Part shown: piece by piece, positions 1,762 to 48,554 of the stretch
Layout of the letters: each line of letters starts with the position of its first letter
Numbering within the stretch: the stretch's first letter is position 1
Assembly (NCBI RefSeq): GCF_002163715.1
Contig: NZ_CP015698.1
Coordinates: 496,001 to 560,000 of the forward strand
DNA: 64,000 nt
From: Curvibacter sp. AEP1-3
GTDB lineage: Bacteria; Pseudomonadota; Gammaproteobacteria; Burkholderiales; Burkholderiaceae_C
Direction: 5' to 3'
The notes under the pieces: model-generated
Told to the model about the DNA's origin: nothing
Databases searched by the model: none
The model's input: only the letters and a program-made list of their open reading frames with translations
Translations under genes and position numbers: made by a program

Positions 1762-3780
1762 ATGTCTTTGCAAGATTTCCAACTCGAATTGCTGGCGCCT
1801 GCCCGCACGGCTGACATCGGTATCGAAGCCGTGAACCACGGTGCCGATGCGGTCTACATCGGCGGCCCCGGCTTCGGGGCCCGCTCCAGCGCCGACAACA
1901 GCGTGGCCGACATCGCGCGGCTGGTGCAGCACGCGCACCGCTACAACAGCCGCATCTTCGTCACCATGAACACCATCCTGCGGGACGACGAGCTGGAGCC
2001 CGCACGCAAACAGGCCTGGCAACTGTTTGAGGCCGGTGTCGATGCCCTTATCGTGCAAGACATGGGGTTGTTGGCTATCGATATGCCGCCGTTGCAGCTT
2101 CATGCCAGTACCCAGACGGATATCCGCACGCCCGAGAAAGCACGCTTCTTGCAAGACGTGGGCCTCTCGCAAATCGTGCTGGCACGCGAACTCACGACCA
2201 AGCAGATTGCGGCCATCCGCGCCGCCACCGATCCGGAGAAGTGCACGCTGGAGTTCTTTATCCACGGCGCTCTGTGCGTGGCCTACAGCGGCCAGTGCTA
2301 CATCAGCGCAGCCCACACGGGGCGCAGCGCCAACCGGGGCGAATGCAGCCAGGCCTGCCGCCTTCCCTACCAGGTCGTGGACGACAAGGGCCGCTTTGTG
2401 GCGCACGACAAGCATGTGCTGTCCATGAAAGACAACAACCAAAGCGAGAACCTGGCCGCCTTGGTGGATGCAGGCATCCGCAGCTTCAAGATCGAAGGGC
2501 GCTACAAGGACATGGGCTATGTGAAAAACATCACCGCCCACTACCGCAAGCTGCTGGACCGGCTGATCGAGGACCGTCAGTACTCTGACCAACCCTTGGC
2601 CCGAAGCAGCAGTGGCACCACCACCTTCACCTTCGATCCCGACCCTAACCAGAACTTCAACCGCGAATTCACCGACTACTTTGTGCAGGGCCGCCAGATC
2701 GACATCGGGGCCTTCGACACCCCCAAAAACCCGGGCCAAGCTATCGGTTACGTCACCAAGGTCAATGCCGACAGCGTGGAACTGGAGCTGATGGACCGCA
2801 GCAAACACTTAAGCAATGGCGATGGCCTGTGCTATTACGACCTGCAAAAAGAACTGGTGGGCTTGGCCATCAACCGCGCAGAAGCCATCAACGCGGCCAA
2901 GGGCTTGTGGCGCGTGTTCCCCAAAGACCCCATGCCGGGTTTCAAAGACCTGCGCAAAGGCGTGGAGGTGAACCGCAACCGCGATGTGAACTGGACCCGC
3001 ACCCTCGACAAAAAGAGCAGCGACCGGCGCATCGGCGTCTGGGCCGTGTTGACAGAAGTCCCAGAGGGCATTGCCCTCACCCTGACCGATGAAGACGGCT
3101 TCACCGCCACTGCCCGCACCACCCTGCCCCGCGAGCTGGCCAAGGATACTGGCACGGCGATGGACACCCTCAAGGACAACGTCAGCAAAATGGGCGCCAC
3201 CATTTTTGCGGCGCTCGATGTGCAAGTGCAGTTCAGCCAGCCCTGGTTTGTACCCGCCTCGGTGCTCAACCCCCTGCGGCGTGAGGCGGTGGATGCGCTG
3301 GAGCGTGCCCGTGCTGCCGGATTTGTGCGCTTGGCGCCCGGTGTGGCGGTGGAGCCACCGGTGGCCTATCCCGAAGACACCTTGAGCTACCTCGCCAACG
3401 TGTTCAACCAGGCGGCCCACGGCTTTTACGCCAAGCATGGTGTCAAAGTGATTGCCCCGGCCTATGAGGCGGTGGAAGAACTGGGTGAGGTGAGCCTGAT
3501 GATCACCAAGCACTGTGTGCGCTTCTCTTTAAGCCTCTGCCCCAAGCAGGCCAAAGGCGTGACTGGTGTGCAAGGCCAAGTGAAGGCGGAGCCTTTACAA
3601 CTCATCAACGGCAAAGAAAAGCTCACTCTGCGCTTTGACTGCAAACCCTGCGAAATGCATGTGGTGGGCAAGATGAAAACCAGTGTGGCCAACCAGAGCC
3701 GCAAAGAGCTGCTGGAAGCGGCACAGGGCGTGCCCATGACTTTCCACAAGACCCGACCCAAGCAGGAGTTCGGGCACTAA
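1762..3780 (+). CDS. rlhA: 23S rRNA C2501 hydroxylation factor RlhA (peptidase U32 family)
   Basis: 672 residues, matching the long form of the U32 family (E. coli RlhA/YdcP, about 650 residues) rather than the shorter TrhP/YegQ. Close matches include the opening LELLAPARTADIGIEAVNHG, HGADAVYIGGPGFGAR, HGALCVAYSGQC and GRSANRGECSQACR, where the cysteines belong to the set thought to bind an iron-sulfur cluster, then SFKIEGRYKDMGYVKN. The C-terminal third carries the DUF3656/collagenase-like extension and another Cys-rich stretch (FDCKPCEMH). RlhA is needed for 5-hydroxycytidine at position 2501 of 23S rRNA in E. coli. It stands alone between divergent MFS and convergent genes, with a terminator hairpin just after its stop. 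Confidence 0.9.
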   Translation: MSLQDFQLELLAPARTADIGIEAVNHGADAVYIGGPGFGARSSADNSVADIARLVQHAHRYNSRIFVTMNTILRDDELEPARKQAWQLFEAGVDALIVQDMGLLAIDMPPLQLHASTQTDIRTPEKARFLQDVGLSQIVLARELTTKQIAAIRAATDPEKCTLEFFIHGALCVAYSGQCYISAAHTGRSANRGECSQACRLPYQVVDDKGRFVAHDKHVLSMKDNNQSENLAALVDAGIRSFKIEGRYKDMGYVKNITAHYRKLLDRLIEDRQYSDQPLARSSSGTTTFTFDPDPNQNFNREFTDYFVQGRQIDIGAFDTPKNPGQAIGYVTKVNADSVELELMDRSKHLSNGDGLCYYDLQKELVGLAINRAEAINAAKGLWRVFPKDPMPGFKDLRKGVEVNRNRDVNWTRTLDKKSSDRRIGVWAVLTEVPEGIALTLTDEDGFTATARTTLPRELAKDTGTAMDTLKDNVSKMGATIFAALDVQVQFSQPWFVPASVLNPLRREAVDALERARAAGFVRLAPGVAVEPPVAYPEDTLSYLANVFNQAAHGFYAKHGVKVIAPAYEAVEELGEVSLMITKHCVRFSLSLCPKQAKGVTGVQGQVKAEPLQLINGKEKLTLRFDCKPCEMHVVGKMKTSVANQSRKELLEAAQGVPMTFHKTRPKQEFGH

Positions 3781-44711: not shown

Positions 44712-46187
44712 TCACAGCAACACAATGTCGTATTGCTCCTGGGCCATGGCTGCCTCGCTTTGCAGCGACACAGGTTTGCCGATGAACTCGGAGAGGCCTG
44801 CCAAGTGCTGGCTTTCTTCGTCCAACAGCAACTCAATTACCTTGGGTGACGCGACTACCCTGAACTCGCGCGGCGTGAACTGTCGGGCTTCACGCAAAAT
44901 TTCGCGCAAGATGTCATAAGCCACGCTGCGGGGCGTCTTGACGATGCCCTTGCCTTCGCAGGTCGGGCACGGCTCGCACAGCATGTGAGCCAGCGATTCA
45001 CGCGTGCGCTTGCGCGTCATTTCCACCAGACCCAGCTGCGAGAAGCCACCCGCCATAGTCTTCACCCGATCGCGTCCCAACTGTTTGCGGAACTCCGCCA
45101 ACACGGCCTCGCGGTGGTCTTCGCGGGCCATGTCGATAAAGTCAACAATGATGATGCCGCCCAGATTGCGCAATCGCAATTGACGTGCGATTGCCTGTGC
45201 CGCTTCGAGATTGGTTTTGAAAATGGTGTCGTCAAAGTTGCGCGCACCGACAAAACCACCCGTGTTCACATCCACCGTAGTCAGGGCTTCGGTCTGGTCC
45301 ACGATCAGGTAGCCGCCCGACTTGAGCTCCACCCGGCGCGCCAGCGCTTTGGCAATTTCTTCGTCAATGGAATACAGGTCGAAGATGGGGCGCTCACCCT
45401 TGTAGTGCTGCAACTTCTCAGCCGCTGCGGGCATGAACTCCGCTCCAAAGGTCTTTAGCGCATCAAACTGCTCGCGCGAATCCACGCGAATCGTCTGCGT
45501 CGTTTCGCCCACCAAGTCACGCAACACGCGCTGCAACAGGTTCAAATCCTGGTGCAACAAACTTTGCGGCGGCAGACGAAGCGATGCATCCTTGATCCGG
45601 GCCCACGCCTTGCGCAGGTAAGCAATATCGTCGCCCAGCTCCTTGTCCGACGCATCCTCGCCATTGGTGCGCAAGATGAATCCACCGCCTTCTTTGCCCG
45701 CAAGCGCCTGCATGCGGCTGCGCAGCTCATCACGCTGAGCGGTAGGAATCTTTTGGGACACGCCGATATGGTCGTCCTGCGGCAGGAACACCAGCAGGCG
45801 GCCGGCAATGCTGATTTGCGTGGACAGGCGCGCGCCCTTAGTGCCAATCGGGTCCTTGATCACCTGCACCATGAGGGACTGACCCTCAAACACCTGCTTC
45901 TCAATCGGAATCTGGAGCTGAGATGCGCGGGAGGAACTCAGCGACTCACCTTCTGCCGGAGGATGCCACACATCAGCAACATGCAAAAAGGCCGCGCGCT
46001 CCAGGCCAATGTCGATAAACGCTGACTGCATGCCGGGCAGCACCCGCGCCACTTTGCCAAGGTACACATTGCCCACCAGACCACGCTCCAGCGTGCGTTC
46101 CACGTGCAGTTCTTGCACTGCACCGTGTTCCACGATGGCGACCCGCGTCTCTTGCGGGGACCAGTTGATCAGGATGTCTTGTTGCAT
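44712..46187 (-). CDS. rng: Ribonuclease G
   Basis: 491 residues. S1 RNA-binding domain near 35-110 (LVGNVYLGKVARVLPGMQSA, FIDIGLERAAFLH), RNase-E/G catalytic core with TTVDVNTGGFVG (catalytic Asp) and IIIVDFIDMARE (second Asp), and the zinc-link CEPCPTC (CPxC). No long C-terminal degradosome scaffold, so it is RNase G, not RNase E. Processes 5S and 16S rRNA ends. In many proteobacteria it follows maf; here only a maf remnant remains upstream. The start overlaps that remnant by 19 bases. Confidence 0.95.
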   Translation of the reverse strand: MQQDILINWSPQETRVAIVEHGAVQELHVERTLERGLVGNVYLGKVARVLPGMQSAFIDIGLERAAFLHVADVWHPPAEGESLSSSRASQLQIPIEKQVFEGQSLMVQVIKDPIGTKGARLSTQISIAGRLLVFLPQDDHIGVSQKIPTAQRDELRSRMQALAGKEGGGFILRTNGEDASDKELGDDIAYLRKAWARIKDASLRLPPQSLLHQDLNLLQRVLRDLVGETTQTIRVDSREQFDALKTFGAEFMPAAAEKLQHYKGERPIFDLYSIDEEIAKALARRVELKSGGYLIVDQTEALTTVDVNTGGFVGARNFDDTIFKTNLEAAQAIARQLRLRNLGGIIIVDFIDMAREDHREAVLAEFRKQLGRDRVKTMAGGFSQLGLVEMTRKRTRESLAHMLCEPCPTCEGKGIVKTPRSVAYDILREILREARQFTPREFRVVASPKVIELLLDEESQHLAGLSEFIGKPVSLQSEAAMAQEQYDIVLL

Positions 46188-46249
46188 GCAAAGCCCACTT
46201 CGCGCAAGGCCTGCGCTGTTTCAAACAAAGGGAGGCCCATGATGCCGGA
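46169..46249 (-). pseudogene. maf: 3' remnant of maf, cut by the prophage
   Basis: Minus-strand frame reads SGIMGLPLFETAQALREVGF then ACNKTS and a TGA inside the first codons of rng. E. coli YhdE ends HAVVGLPLVETYELL, so this is the C-terminus of a Maf nucleotide pyrophosphatase. The match fades upstream of SGI, and a TAA in the same frame lies near 46293. The rest of maf is absent from this side. The right limit of the remnant is approximate. Confidence 0.75.
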
Positions 46250-46384
46250 GTCTAAGCCCCAATGAAAACGTGTGTTCATTTTGAAAAGTTACGCCAGAAA
46301 TTACGCTGACGCCTAGTGCACCACCTTGGGCCGTGGTTGATTGTCGCACGAGCATTCTGGGGTTTTTGTTTGTCTTGGTGGCTG

Positions 46385-46390
46385 TATATT
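46385..46390 (+). promoter_or_regulatory. -10-like TATATT, 9 nt before the small ORF at 46400
   Basis: TATATT, then TAAACAGCA, then ATG. No Shine-Dalgarno. It fits a leaderless or very short 5' leader for the 71-residue ORF. Confidence 0.35.
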
Positions 46391-46399
46391 TAAACAGCA

Positions 46400-46615
46400 A
46401 TGAAAACAGAGACAACTTACCTTTGGCGGATCAAGTGGGCGGGCCGATGGACCAACACCAAGTACCACTGCACCGATGAACAGATTCGCAAAGAACACCC
46501 GGAGGCCGTCTGCCTGGTGGAGTCAAAGCGCGTGCAACAGGTGCCGGAAACAGACGACGAGCTGCGCGAGGCGCAGCAAATGAACTTCACCAGCGGCTTC
46601 ATGCGCAACAAATGA
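46400..46615 (+). CDS. Hypothetical 71-residue protein at the prophage edge
   Basis: Small charged protein without membrane segment: MKTETTYLWRIKWAGRWTNT, two Trp near the N-terminus, then KEHPEAVCLVESKRVQQVPET and a tail TSGFMRNK. I do not recognise the family; it looks like a small host-control or accessory protein of a prophage. It lies between the maf break and the KilA-N locus and is the only gene in that interval. A perfect 7-bp inverted repeat TGAATCG/CGATTCA begins at its stop codon. Confidence 0.55.
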   Translation: MKTETTYLWRIKWAGRWTNTKYHCTDEQIRKEHPEAVCLVESKRVQQVPETDDELREAQQMNFTSGFMRNK

Positions 46616-46632
46616 ATCGACTTAGCGATTCA
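46613..46632. other. 7-bp inverted repeat after the small ORF
   Basis: TGAATCG, spacer ACTTAG, CGATTCA. It begins at the stop codon. No T-run follows, so it is a weak terminator at best and could equally be a protein-binding site. Confidence 0.4.
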
Positions 46633-46763
46633 AAACACTGTACATCCCTGCAGTGCACCGATGGAGCCCGCATGGAATGGACTATCCGGTGAAGTTAGGC
46701 GACAGATACACTGCCGGTAGTGGCTTGTGAGCAACACCCTAAAGGCCTTAAAATAATCGATGC
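46616..46763. other. Non-coding stretch with a second TGCAGTGCA core
   Basis: No gene seen. TGCAGTGCA at 46649-46657 repeats the centre of the dyad at 46885-46899, in inverse orientation. The rest (GC and AT mixed) shows no obvious signal except TAAAATAAT near 46750. Confidence 0.4.
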
Positions 46764-46801
46764 AAACAAAAAGGCGACCTACTTTCACAAGTAAATCGCC
46801 T
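46764..46801 (-). terminator. Terminator of the candidate small RNA
   Basis: Minus strand: GGCGA, 2x2 internal loop, TACTT, loop GTGA-type, AAGTA, TCGCC, then TTTTTGTTT. Read on the plus strand the hairpin has no T-rich tail, so it works in one direction. Confidence 0.75.
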
Positions 46802-46866
46802 CAAGTTAGCAGCAACGCAACGAACCGATCCGCCAAGACTAGTCGTTGCATTTCATTGTTAGTGCG
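46764..46866 (-). ncRNA. Candidate small RNA (~100 nt) divergent from the KilA-N gene
   Basis: A promoter with perfect TATAAT on the minus strand (46878-46873) predicts a start near 46866. Transcription would end at a hairpin plus TTTTTGTTT at 46764-46801. Between them GCAACGA (46817-46823) and TCGTTGC (46843-46849) form a 7-bp stem with an 19-nt loop, so the RNA would have one internal hairpin and one terminator hairpin. It contains only a five-codon reading frame (MKCND). I do not recognise an Rfam family. It could be a trans-acting regulator, or an antisense to a related transcript elsewhere in the phage. Confidence 0.5.
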
Positions 46867-46872
46867 TCGGTG

Positions 46873-46900
46873 ATTATAGCAAGCTGCTGCACTGCAGCAA
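46873..46900 (-). promoter_or_regulatory. Promoter of the candidate small RNA
   Basis: -35 TTGCTG (46900-46895), 16-nt spacer, -10 TATAAT (46878-46873), minus strand. Four of six bases match the -35 consensus and all six the -10. Overlapped by the dyad at 46885-46899. Confidence 0.6.
46885..46899. promoter_or_regulatory. Operator-like perfect dyad over the small-RNA promoter
   Basis: TGCTGCA, C, TGCAGCA: a perfect 7-bp inverted repeat around a single base. It covers the -35 and the spacer of the minus-strand promoter and lies 50 bp upstream of the KilA-N start, a position from which a bound protein could control both. Confidence 0.55.
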
Positions 46901-46948
46901 GTAAGCAATAACCCTGACGCAGCGGTACCTACAAGGAGAACCCTTACC

Positions 46949-47647
46949 GTGTCCCTGCAACATCAACACACCTTAGTCACCCGTGACTATCAAGGCCATG
47001 CGATTACCTACCAAGATGATGGCTGGTTTAACGCGACTCAAGCCGCATCCAGATGGGGGAAAAACCCAGCAGAATGGTTGCGACTACCAAGCACCATTGA
47101 ATATCTGTCTGCTTTGAAGCGCCATCACAGTGATATGGGGAAATCCCACATCACTCGAAAAGGCAACTCAAAACAATTCCAGCAAGGAACATGGCTGCAT
47201 CCAAAGCTAGCGGTTCCATTTGCGCGCTGGCTTGATGCAGATTTTGCAGTCTGGTGCGACTCACAGATCGACGGAATCATTCGTGGTTCAGACGACTGGA
47301 AGAAGCTTCGGCACATGTCCGTGGCTTCAGCAAAACTCATGGCTGAAGTGATCAAAGATCAAAAAGTGGCCGAAGGCAAAGAACTCAAGCCTCATCACTT
47401 CTCAAATGAACACTGCTTGGTCAACTCGCTCATAACAGGCAAGTTCAAGGGGATTCAACGCAACTCGCTGACCCTTGCCGAGTTGGATTTCATTGGGAAG
47501 TTTGATGTGCGGAACAGTCTGCTTATTGCCAAGGGCATGAGCTATGAGGAGCGCAAGGCGACTCTTACTGCTGAGGCTGCCGCCTGGCTTGCTGCGAATG
47601 CCTCAAGACTTCCCTCTGCAAACGATCCGGGAAAGTTAGCAGCCTAA
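46949..47647 (+). CDS. KilA-N domain protein (putative phage antirepressor)
   Basis: 232 residues. The N-terminal half is a KilA-N domain: ITYQDDGWFNATQAASRWGK, NPAEWLRLPSTIEYLSAL, FQQGTWLHPKLAVPFARWLD and ADFAVWCDSQI. KilA-N is a DNA-binding domain of phage antirepressors and regulatory proteins. The C-terminal half (about 115-232) is helical and unrecognised. GTG start at 46949 with AGGAG 10 nt upstream. Transcribed opposite to the late genes, and flanked by the candidate small RNA on its left and a terminator on its right. Targets are unknown. Confidence 0.85.
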   Translation: MSLQHQHTLVTRDYQGHAITYQDDGWFNATQAASRWGKNPAEWLRLPSTIEYLSALKRHHSDMGKSHITRKGNSKQFQQGTWLHPKLAVPFARWLDADFAVWCDSQIDGIIRGSDDWKKLRHMSVASAKLMAEVIKDQKVAEGKELKPHHFSNEHCLVNSLITGKFKGIQRNSLTLAELDFIGKFDVRNSLLIAKGMSYEERKATLTAEAAAWLAANASRLPSANDPGKLAA

Positions 47648-47661
47648 ACTCAGCAAACCAA

Positions 47662-47683
47662 AACCCGCTTCGGCGGGTTTTTT
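47662..47683 (+). terminator. Terminator between KilA-N and the lysis genes
   Basis: AACCCGC, loop TTCG, GCGGGTT, then TTTTTT-type tail. On the minus strand the hairpin is followed by TTTTGGTTTG, so it can stop the late operon too. Confidence 0.9.
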
Positions 47684-47688
47684 GTTGC

Positions 47689-48084
47689 CTACGGGCAGCC
47701 CTTGCTGGCGCCCTGCCCTCCGTAGATCTTGCGCTCAAAGTGGTCTTTGCTGTCTGGGCCTTTGGCGCTCTTGATGGCATTGGGCAGCCACTGGAGGTTG
47801 TAGACCGCATCGGCACCACCGCAAGCCAGAGGGATCACGTGATCGATGGCCCAGCCTGGGCACGATCCAAAGGACTTGCCAGTGGCCGGGCATGGGTACT
47901 TTTCACGAAAAGCTGCCAGCACCGCGGCGCTGCGTTCTGTCTTGCCGGCGTCGGTGCGAACCACTTGGCCGGTCTGGCGGTAGTCCACCAGGGGATTCAA
48001 TGACGTGTTTGCGGGCTCTGGCGGGTTTTGAGCACAGCCGACAAGCACAGCAACTACACCAATGATGGATACGCCCTTCAACAT
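47689..48084 (-). CDS. HNH-domain lipoprotein
   Basis: 131 residues from the ATG at 48084. The N-terminus MLKGVSIIGVVAVLVGC is a lipoprotein signal with Cys17 as lipidation site. The rest contains SFGSCPGWAIDHVIPLACGG, then NLQWLPNAIKSAK and KDHFERK, which match the HNH nuclease fold (DH..., N..., H). A TTG at 48102 overlapping the Rz stop is the alternative start. An HNH domain outside the inner or in the outer membrane would be unusual: it might cleave incoming DNA or act after lysis. Last gene of the lysis operon. Confidence 0.7.
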   Translation of the reverse strand: MLKGVSIIGVVAVLVGCAQNPPEPANTSLNPLVDYRQTGQVVRTDAGKTERSAAVLAAFREKYPCPATGKSFGSCPGWAIDHVIPLACGGADAVYNLQWLPNAIKSAKGPDSKDHFERKIYGGQGASKGCP

Positions 48085-48098
48085 GAGGGCATTGTCTA

Positions 48099-48554
48099 TC
48101 AATGCAGTGTCAGCAGCTCTTGGCAGGCGCTCAGCCTTCCTTCGGTTTCAATGATGTTTTGTCGTAGGGCCGTATAAGCTTGTCGAGCAGCGGCAGTGAG
48201 CTCGGCTGCGGCTCCAGAATCCACGCCGGCGTCTTGGGCGGTTTGGGTTGGTCCGGTGCCGGGGCAAGTCGCGTCGATGTGCAGGCCTGTAGTGCCAGCA
48301 GCAAGGCGATCAGTAAGAGCTTTGTTTTCATTGCGGGCTTTCGTGAGTTGGGCGGTGCGGGTTTTGTCGACCTGGTCGACTTTGTCGGCCAAGTCGTCAC
48401 GCTGACGGATAGCAGCCAGCAGCTGGTCGTTGCGCTGCTTGGCCAGCTCGATGCGCTCTCGGCCGTGCTCGGCATCGAGGCGCCAGCCATTTACAGCCCA
48501 GCCGCCAAAGAATCCAACAGCCACCAAGGCAATGGCGATGAGTAGTTCTTTCAT
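48099..48554 (-). CDS. i-spanin Rz-like lysis protein
   Basis: 151 residues: an N-terminal signal-anchor (LLIAIALVAVGFFGGWAVNG) and a periplasmic coiled coil rich in Arg, Asp and Gln (ERIELAKQRNDQLLAAIRQRDDLADK). Inner-membrane spanin subunits connect to the outer membrane to complete lysis. The coding sequence contains a complete Rz1 in another frame. The start overlaps the endolysin stop (ATGA). Confidence 0.85.
   Translation of the reverse strand: MKELLIAIALVAVGFFGGWAVNGWRLDAEHGRERIELAKQRNDQLLAAIRQRDDLADKVDQVDKTRTAQLTKARNENKALTDRLAAGTTGLHIDATCPGTGPTQTAQDAGVDSGAAAELTAAARQAYTALRQNIIETEGRLSACQELLTLH
48131..48331 (-). CDS. o-spanin Rz1-like lipoprotein embedded in Rz
   Basis: 66 residues in a different frame inside Rz: MKTKLLLIALLLALQACTST (lipobox ALQAC) followed by a Pro-rich mature part (RLAPAPDQPKPPKTPAW...). 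The frame is longer upstream but only this part has a lipoprotein signal, so the ATG at 48331 is taken. Fully nested Rz/Rz1 pairs are typical of lambdoid phages. The mature protein is about 50 residues with six prolines near its start. Confidence 0.85.
   Translation of the reverse strand: MKTKLLLIALLLALQACTSTRLAPAPDQPKPPKTPAWILEPQPSSLPLLDKLIRPYDKTSLKPKEG

Follow-up and report, generated by a model that had tools for sequence, protein, structure and literature searches.

What controls the KilA-N gene at the left end of a prophage in Curvibacter sp. AEP1-3, and what is the small RNA that appears to be encoded beside it on the opposite strand? The window, by which we mean the whole stretch of 64,000 nucleotides analyzed here, carries the left part of this prophage, an element of ~36.9 kb that lies between rng (44712-46187, RNase E/G) and maf. 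Its integration site is apparently the 3' end of maf. An 11-bp core, CCCATGATGCC, stands at 46236-46246 and again at 83168-83178 (window numbering, the second copy lying beyond the window), and the coding sequences on the two flanks share a similar C-terminus, taken here to be that of Maf. The KilA-N gene itself (46949..47647, plus strand; 232 aa, PF04383 at E 2e-21) is preceded by a Shine-Dalgarno-like AAGGAG (46933..46938, +), runs opposite to the adjacent lysis genes (Rz by both Pfam and PHROG), and is followed by a terminator-like hairpin at 47661..47684 (+); the opposed orientation and the hairpin are as expected of a moron. Adjoining this slot is a gene for an HNH-type nuclease (47689..48102, minus strand), which has weak PHROG matches to endonuclease VII/HNH proteins (1.3e-4 and 4.8e-4) and, by direct reading, a lipoprotein-like start.

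Upstream of the KilA-N gene, the first-pass annotation had described a -10/-35 promoter, a 7-bp stem, a hairpin and a perfect dyad on the minus strand, and direct reading finds all of them in place. The promoter (TTGCTG-16-TATAAT, 46873..46900, -) combines a poor -35 element, with three of six consensus matches by our own count, with a TG one base ahead of TATAAT that forms an extended -10 (TGCTATAAT); it is absent from the output of a generic promoter scan of 46200-47800. Downstream lie a 7-bp stem, GCAACGA/TCGTTGC (46817..46849, -), whose loop holds the YUNR-type sequence CUUG (46837-46834, -), and an intrinsic-terminator-like hairpin of 14 pairs followed by TTTGTTT (46771..46802, -). The role of such YUNR loops has been described (PMC6562991), and by direct reading a loop with this motif is also present in the closest relative of this locus. 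Together, these elements delimit a putative RNA of ~100 nt (46764..46866, -) that folds better than shuffled sequences (z -3.7; 1 of 200 as good). The terminator-like hairpin by itself is not remarkable, falling within chance expectation (two found in 1.6 kb, 2.1 expected); the decisive evidence that places the RNA beyond chance is its conservation. The RNA had not been recognized in the first pass, and the Rfam search that we ran returned no family at gathering score, C4 included. At a lax threshold (46600-47000, E up to 1) Pistol was the only match, with nothing credible on the RNA; that match, at 46615-46653 (+) and 17.7 bits against a gathering score of 34.5, is probably chance. A scan of the whole window with Rfam gave two tRNAs only.

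Inspection of the plus strand revealed a candidate promoter for the KilA-N mRNA at 46725..46754 (TTGTGA-18-TAAAAT), the only sigma70-like site on that strand in 46200-47800. Since 1.0 such sites are expected by chance, support for this promoter comes from conservation: it can be aligned both to nrdA promoters and to its counterparts in two related loci, L006 and L152. With its start placed 7 nt past the -10, the KilA-N leader would run from 46761 to 46948 (+) and would hold the complement of the small RNA. The RNA had initially been described as divergent from the gene; because the sole sigma70-like site on the plus strand lies beyond the terminator of the RNA, an antisense arrangement is the probable one, the two promoters facing one another and the RNA lying opposite part of the KilA-N leader. 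At the level of sequence elements, a putative RNA with a promoter and a terminator to itself stands opposite a leader that is defined by the putative plus promoter. Translational attenuation by the RNA was considered and set aside, as blocking the covered part of the leader in constrained in silico folding changes neither Shine-Dalgarno nor start-codon accessibility clearly.

A search with 46600-46960 over 61 genomes yielded matches in four. Beyond the AEP1-3 genome, the cassette was found only in Comamonadaceae bacterium OS-4 (G001, AP026970.1; 70% identity, E 9.8e-15), a member of the same genus in which RNA, promoter and dyad all recur in a mobile element; the other two genomes share just 24-26 bp of the plus promoter. 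The OS-4 element (L020 1986-13524) spans ~11.5 kb, contains integrase, primase-like and capsid E genes, and is possibly a phage satellite or a degraded prophage.

The first-pass annotation had proposed covariation as a check, and the stems do keep pairing through double changes, both in OS-4 and in the four-sequence comparison described below. For two stems taken from the plus-strand fold of the window alone and placed on OS-4 by plain MAFFT alignment, 21 of 21 pairs are kept, five via double changes; under simulated independent substitution, the probability is 6e-6 for keeping all 21 pairs and 0.006 for at least five double changes. The minus-strand structure keeps 20 of 21 pairs, with five double changes, and this two-sequence covariation is matched by 20 of 500 shuffles. 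The terminator hairpin in OS-4 shows four double changes, two one-sided changes that keep the pair, and one broken pair. Taken over all four leader hairpins, the signal is weaker (37/50 pairs kept, P 0.0055; six double changes, P 0.064). We make no claim for the hairpins at the dyad (H3) and at the start codon (H4): the plain MAFFT alignment leaves 8 of the 22 pairs in H3 broken; in H4, which has nine pairs, five are broken and two gapped. H4 is good in the OS-4 cassette (L006; 1 of 500 shuffles as good) and poor in the window (44 of 500), whereas for H3 this is reversed (109 of 500 in L006, 4 of 500 in the window).

A covariance model built from these two sequences and run on 103 genomes of the genus matched three, one of them new (G476:C3:2274-2438, E 1e-5). 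Among 47 fetched loci, a fourth, weaker match came from another genus (L024 of G410, E 0.033) and lies directly upstream of, and on the strand opposite to, a gene that combines KilA-N and BstA parts. In an alignment of all four sequences, 94% of cells are paired and 13 of 21 pairs show double changes, values that no shuffle of 500 equals and that slid controls approach with at most 47% and four pairs; the structure was used in fitting this alignment, and that favors the pairing result. A conserved secondary structure, as would be expected of a cis-antisense control pair, is present, and on this comparison the putative small RNA is well supported. The 12-nt loop TCTTGGCGGATC (window 46827-46838, -) is inverted in the G476 cassette (L173 1579-1590, +), as if it had been flipped between its stem arms.

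The cassette is rare among the sequences searched. A second model, built from all four sequences and run on 399 genomes of the family, gave matches at E <= 0.05 in 14, two of which (G000 and G410) were already in the model. Eight of the 12 further matches were fetched; no relative of KilA-N, BstA or Bro-N is encoded at any of them, seven show a hairpin with a T-run by eye, and all eight look like chance. Both genome-wide model searches (103 genus and 399 family genomes) used stricter filters, with which weak matches may be lost. Neither three bstA loci of named phages nor the other fetched KilA-N loci gave a small-RNA match, and none was seen among HNH-linked viral loci (41 found, one being the window's own prophage), of which 32 were searched with the first model and 23 with the second. 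The cassette was unmatched by blastn in phage GenBank; scans of viral contigs returned the dyad-promoter pattern and the nrdA-type operator pattern zero times each; and in the 399-genome family sample, which is without G001 and G476, the dyad-promoter pattern occurred in the AEP1-3 genome only. A scan of a species-genome collection produced five stretches, and the cassette was recognized in one of them, that of OS-4. The other four (L073-L076) have a dyad beside a TATA box and were rejected, no cassette being seen around it on reading. KilA-N proteins are themselves common, with 1,404 relatives at E <= 0.001.

Comparison of the copies shows that the gene behind the control elements differs from one to the next. 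The OS-4 cargo is BstA (PHROG 1.6e-92, PADLOC 1.1e-117), that of G476 is a Bro-N protein sharing the C-terminal region of the KilA-N protein (33% identity over 218 columns) and giving no PADLOC match, and that of G410 joins a KilA-N-like N-terminus to a BstA C-terminus. A KilA-N-type N-terminus joined to the BstA C-terminal domain is also seen in L015 and L025 (G086). The order of plus promoter, terminator, RNA, dyad and gene is kept with different cargo genes. Beside the slot, the HNH-type gene is 76% identical in OS-4, and no other matching pair of frames of at least 90 aa was found between the G000 and G001 regions compared. A further prophage, in G458, is of the same type by direct reading: it adjoins rng and shares the 71-aa frame, an Rz-like gene and the HNH gene (93% identity). 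The listed G458 frames of at least 70 aa include neither KilA-N nor BstA, in place of which the slot holds a possible frame of 40 aa that includes a CEHC motif. The slot itself (L152 3018-2896, -) carries an nrdA-type promoter, both NrdR boxes and a terminator-like hairpin facing the promoter; it gives no small-RNA match, the second model reaching 11.6 bits on the terminator. The sequence of the hairpin found 3' of the KilA-N gene in the window is also seen 3' of this slot.

An RNA of this kind could be trans-acting, with targets among the messages of the host or of competing phages and only an incidental overlap with the KilA-N leader, and its own promoter and terminator, its conserved structure, and the identity in the two closest copies of TGCTAACT, which adjoins the terminator, would suit that role. 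We nevertheless regard trans action as unlikely: only a few bases separate the end of the RNA from the point where the KilA-N mRNA is inferred to start, the order of elements persists when the cargo is exchanged, and the loop varies between copies, to the point of inversion in G476, which fits a self-matched sense/antisense pair better. Our preferred reading makes the small RNA a cis-acting antisense regulator that belongs to an exchangeable cassette of prophages, one equipped with host-type operators.

Less credible again is the view that there is no functional minus-strand RNA, the promoter and hairpins being remnants and the plus-strand leader alone being transcribed and structured. A functional mRNA leader would be just as likely to leave compensating changes in the stems, and leader folds are strong in both copies (46761-46990, z -4.7; OS-4 leader, z -4.6). 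The T-run that turns the hairpin into a terminator, however, can be read on the minus strand only; the minus-strand -10 with its TG and the dyad are almost unchanged (TGCTATAAT/TGCTATACT); and the distance from motif to TATA is equal in three of four loci by our own count.

The cis-antisense reading leaves the question of what governs the RNA. The dyad, TGCTGCA-C-TGCAGCA (TGCTGCACTGCAGCA, 46885..46899), is positioned between the -35 and -10 of the small-RNA promoter. It contains CTGC-N3-GCAG and fits TG-N-TGC-N3-GCA, which is reported as the PhaR motif, together with most of the PhbF motif, TG[N]TGC[N]3GCAA (both PMC3206438); as far as the motif goes, the small-RNA promoter bears a PhaR-type operator. 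The host gene for PhaR is present in four of four genomes (PF07879 over cut-off). With up to two mismatches and on both strands, the dyad motif matches 74 times in the AEP1-3 genome against 5 for a reversed control, figures that are indicative only, the control pattern differing in CpG content. Reading of 18 stretches around PhaR-type sites placed them upstream of PHB genes in two cases, phaP and phaR: two sites precede a phasin gene (L108; PF09361, E 4e-28), and one precedes phaR itself in the AEP1-3 genome. Another site lies beside, but downstream of, a different phasin gene (L112; PF05597), and the remainder are in or near genes for which reading gave no tie to PHB.

The first-pass annotation had suggested that KilA-N or the phage repressor is perhaps the protein that acts at the dyad. 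Several observations argue otherwise. The dyad fits the PhaR/PhbF motif and the motif recurs at host phaP and phaR, and a 41-bp block of dyad and promoter is nearly unchanged in OS-4, where the gene behind it is BstA: 38 of 41 positions are identical, compared with 115 of 196 in three other segments (Fisher p 8e-6; 34 outer positions, 18 of them identical, left out). An operator for KilA-N or a phage repressor was also rejected on the ground that TGYTGCANTGCARCA is single in the prophage (46200-83100), occurring once in the 96 kb that include it. An inverted copy of the core at 46649-46657 had been noted as well; it reads TGC-N3-GCA, a pattern found 30 times in the prophage, and is treated as chance, and by direct reading no such core is seen just upstream of the G001 promoter. 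In the other two of the four cassette loci the dyad takes looser forms, TGCTGCTATGCA and TGATGCACGGCA, upstream of TATACT. A 14-bp palindrome, TTTAGCTAGCTAAA, is visible by eye in the G458 leader (L152 ~3070-3090), roughly where a PhaR-type dyad would be expected. What stands of the initial description is an RNA of ~100 nt, with its promoter under a conserved operator, beside a prophage KilA-N gene.

Least likely of all is that the 41-bp block serves mainly as an aba-like DNA element for self-immunity, rather than as the operator of a host regulator: the OS-4 cargo is BstA, the studied bstA loci carry cognate aba DNA (in BTP1 a 63-bp stretch where the gene begins), and no other segment in the comparison is as conserved as the block, but each aba element tested works only with its cognate BstA (PMC8585504) while the block is near-identical in front of either cargo, KilA-N or BstA, it resembles the PhaR-type sites that precede phaP and phaR, and direct reading reveals in it none of the CCCGCC repeats that BTP1 aba needs.

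The plus promoter likewise resembles that of a host gene. An NrdR-box-like palindrome, ACACTGCCGGTAGTGG (46708..46723, +), corresponds to box 1 of an nrdA-type promoter; over 26 bp at this box, identity with the nrdA promoters of AEP1-3 itself and of G007 is 96%, and its score of 13/20 is reached or exceeded at 69 of 72,985 background positions. The ~50-bp promoter of the OS-4 cassette has matches in 54 of the 103 genomes of the genus; those other than the two cassettes are 77-90% identical. At 21 of 25 such loci checked (20 distinct places) nrdA lies just downstream, as confirmed by Pfam in the AEP1-3 genome, the remaining four being the two cassettes, L155 (at a contig end) and L152. All 21 nrdA promoters have paired NrdR-type boxes with a 16-bp spacer. 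Tight binding of NrdR to box pairs has been reported for spacers of 14-17 bp (PMC12051234), the range over which we scanned for pairs. OS-4 and G458 each carry a pair with a 16-bp spacer, which is firm as a statement about sequence and makes NrdR control of these two relatives plausible. In the window the second position scores 3/20, amounting to no box and hence no pair, and NrdR control of this copy is doubtful; G476 has one box-like palindrome (13/20). None of the 41 HNH-linked viral loci has a paired NrdR site at a 14-17 bp spacer. A host NrdR gene is present in both genomes checked (G000 and G001; TIGR00244 over cut-off).

Among the cargo proteins, a defense function is experimentally known only for BstA, an abortive-infection protein (PMC8585504). 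An anti-phage role for the KilA-N cargo is hinted at by a weak PADLOC match to the candidate system PDC-S22 (2.5e-5), the only PADLOC assignment of the window's cargo, which is not BstA. The AlphaFold model of the KilA-N protein (pLDDT 83, pTM 0.50) matches no PDB entry at 1e-3 or better; the best match, DdrC of Deinococcus, is weak (E 2e-3, TM ~0.4), and matches at <=1e-3 in a viral structure library include other KilA-N proteins. The structural matches are left out of the evidence.

On balance, we favor the reading that the slot holds a promoter-gene-terminator moron of the prophage under an antisense cassette with host-regulator-type operators; put more generally, the best reading is a portable control cassette for prophage moron genes, composed of a cis-antisense RNA and host-regulator-type promoters. 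What the analysis shows directly are the sequence elements, their conservation, the covariation of pairing, the operator matches and the host genes for PhaR and NrdR; the two transcripts, antisense action, repressor binding, the physiological logic and an anti-phage role of the cargo are inferences. The nrdA-type plus promoter would produce a KilA-N mRNA with a leader of ~190 nt, and the facing promoter (46900-46873) inside that leader would produce the ~100-nt RNA, which would end just short of the mRNA start and could pair along its whole length with the leader's initial ~105 nt. The small RNA would lower KilA-N expression by stem-loop contact followed by duplex formation and probably RNase III decay, to which transcriptional collision may add. 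Host PhaR on the PhaR-type operator would repress the small RNA, and accumulation of PHB would release it. Where both NrdR boxes are present, in OS-4 and G458, NrdR would repress the cargo promoter at high dATP, and drained dNTPs, as in phage replication, would free it.

In phages P1 and P7, C4 is a small RNA of antisense type that is associated with an antirepressor-like phage gene; the RNA described here differs in lying on the strand opposite the gene and in having no Rfam family at gathering score. Another parallel is sas/sieB of P22 (named in PMC7067206), in which a prophage antisense RNA controls translation of a phage-exclusion gene; here, by contrast, the RNA lies over the 5'-most part of the leader, the gene behind it is of KilA-N, BstA or Bro-N type, and the promoters bear host-type operators, the comparison being one of description, not of sequence. 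With the BstA-aba system of BTP1 (PMC8585504) the cassette shares BstA as the OS-4 cargo and a KilA-N-type DNA-binding N-terminus, although the cargo of the window is KilA-N; and whereas bstA of BTP1 is reported to be transcribed from the cI promoter and co-transcribed with cI (PMC7067206), the gene here has its own nrdA-type promoter and antisense RNA. The control of repB by RNAII and CopG in pMV158 similarly pairs a short antisense RNA with a transcriptional repressor, but concerns plasmid replication, with a single-hairpin RNA and a plasmid-encoded repressor (PMC4485353). As in the NrdR regulon of nrdAB promoters, box 1 is found in the window and both boxes, 16 bp apart, in OS-4 and G458; unlike that regulon, the promoter drives phage cargo rather than ribonucleotide reductase, and the window is without box 2. 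Literature searches, mainly of papers outside subscription, returned for NrdR with prophage, phage defense and promoter a pneumococcal study alone (PMC6755750), and for NrdR box with phage only matches that were unrelated as judged by their listing. Nothing similar appeared among the best 15 of 73 matches for KilA-N with antisense RNA, prophage and abortive infection, or among the best 10 of 115 for PhaR with prophage.

More tentatively, and with doubt, we entertain a broader possibility: that prophages of the genus possess an exchangeable slot for anti-phage DNA-binding proteins (BstA, KilA-N and Bro-N), in which a promoter modeled on that of the host's NrdR-controlled ribonucleotide reductase senses the drain of dNTPs and the PhaR-controlled antisense RNA sets a threshold. 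An invading phage would drain dNTPs, NrdR would let go, and the defense protein would be made, with the PhaR-controlled RNA adjusting the threshold of defense to the carbon-storage state. In one study of lytic phage infection in pneumococcus, the host operons preceded by NrdR sites reportedly showed much the strongest induction (PMC6755750), which makes NrdR a plausible sensor of infection.

The promoters of the cassette resemble those of genes for DNA building blocks and carbon storage, and the cargo gene may be tuned by the state of the host. How prophage defense genes are kept silent and then switched on is, to our knowledge, a largely open question. If the proposed scheme is true, the cassette would couple prophage defense to host regulators of nucleotide supply and carbon storage, defense would be switched on by the metabolic signature of phage replication, and infection would be sensed in a general and testable way, without recognition of any phage part.
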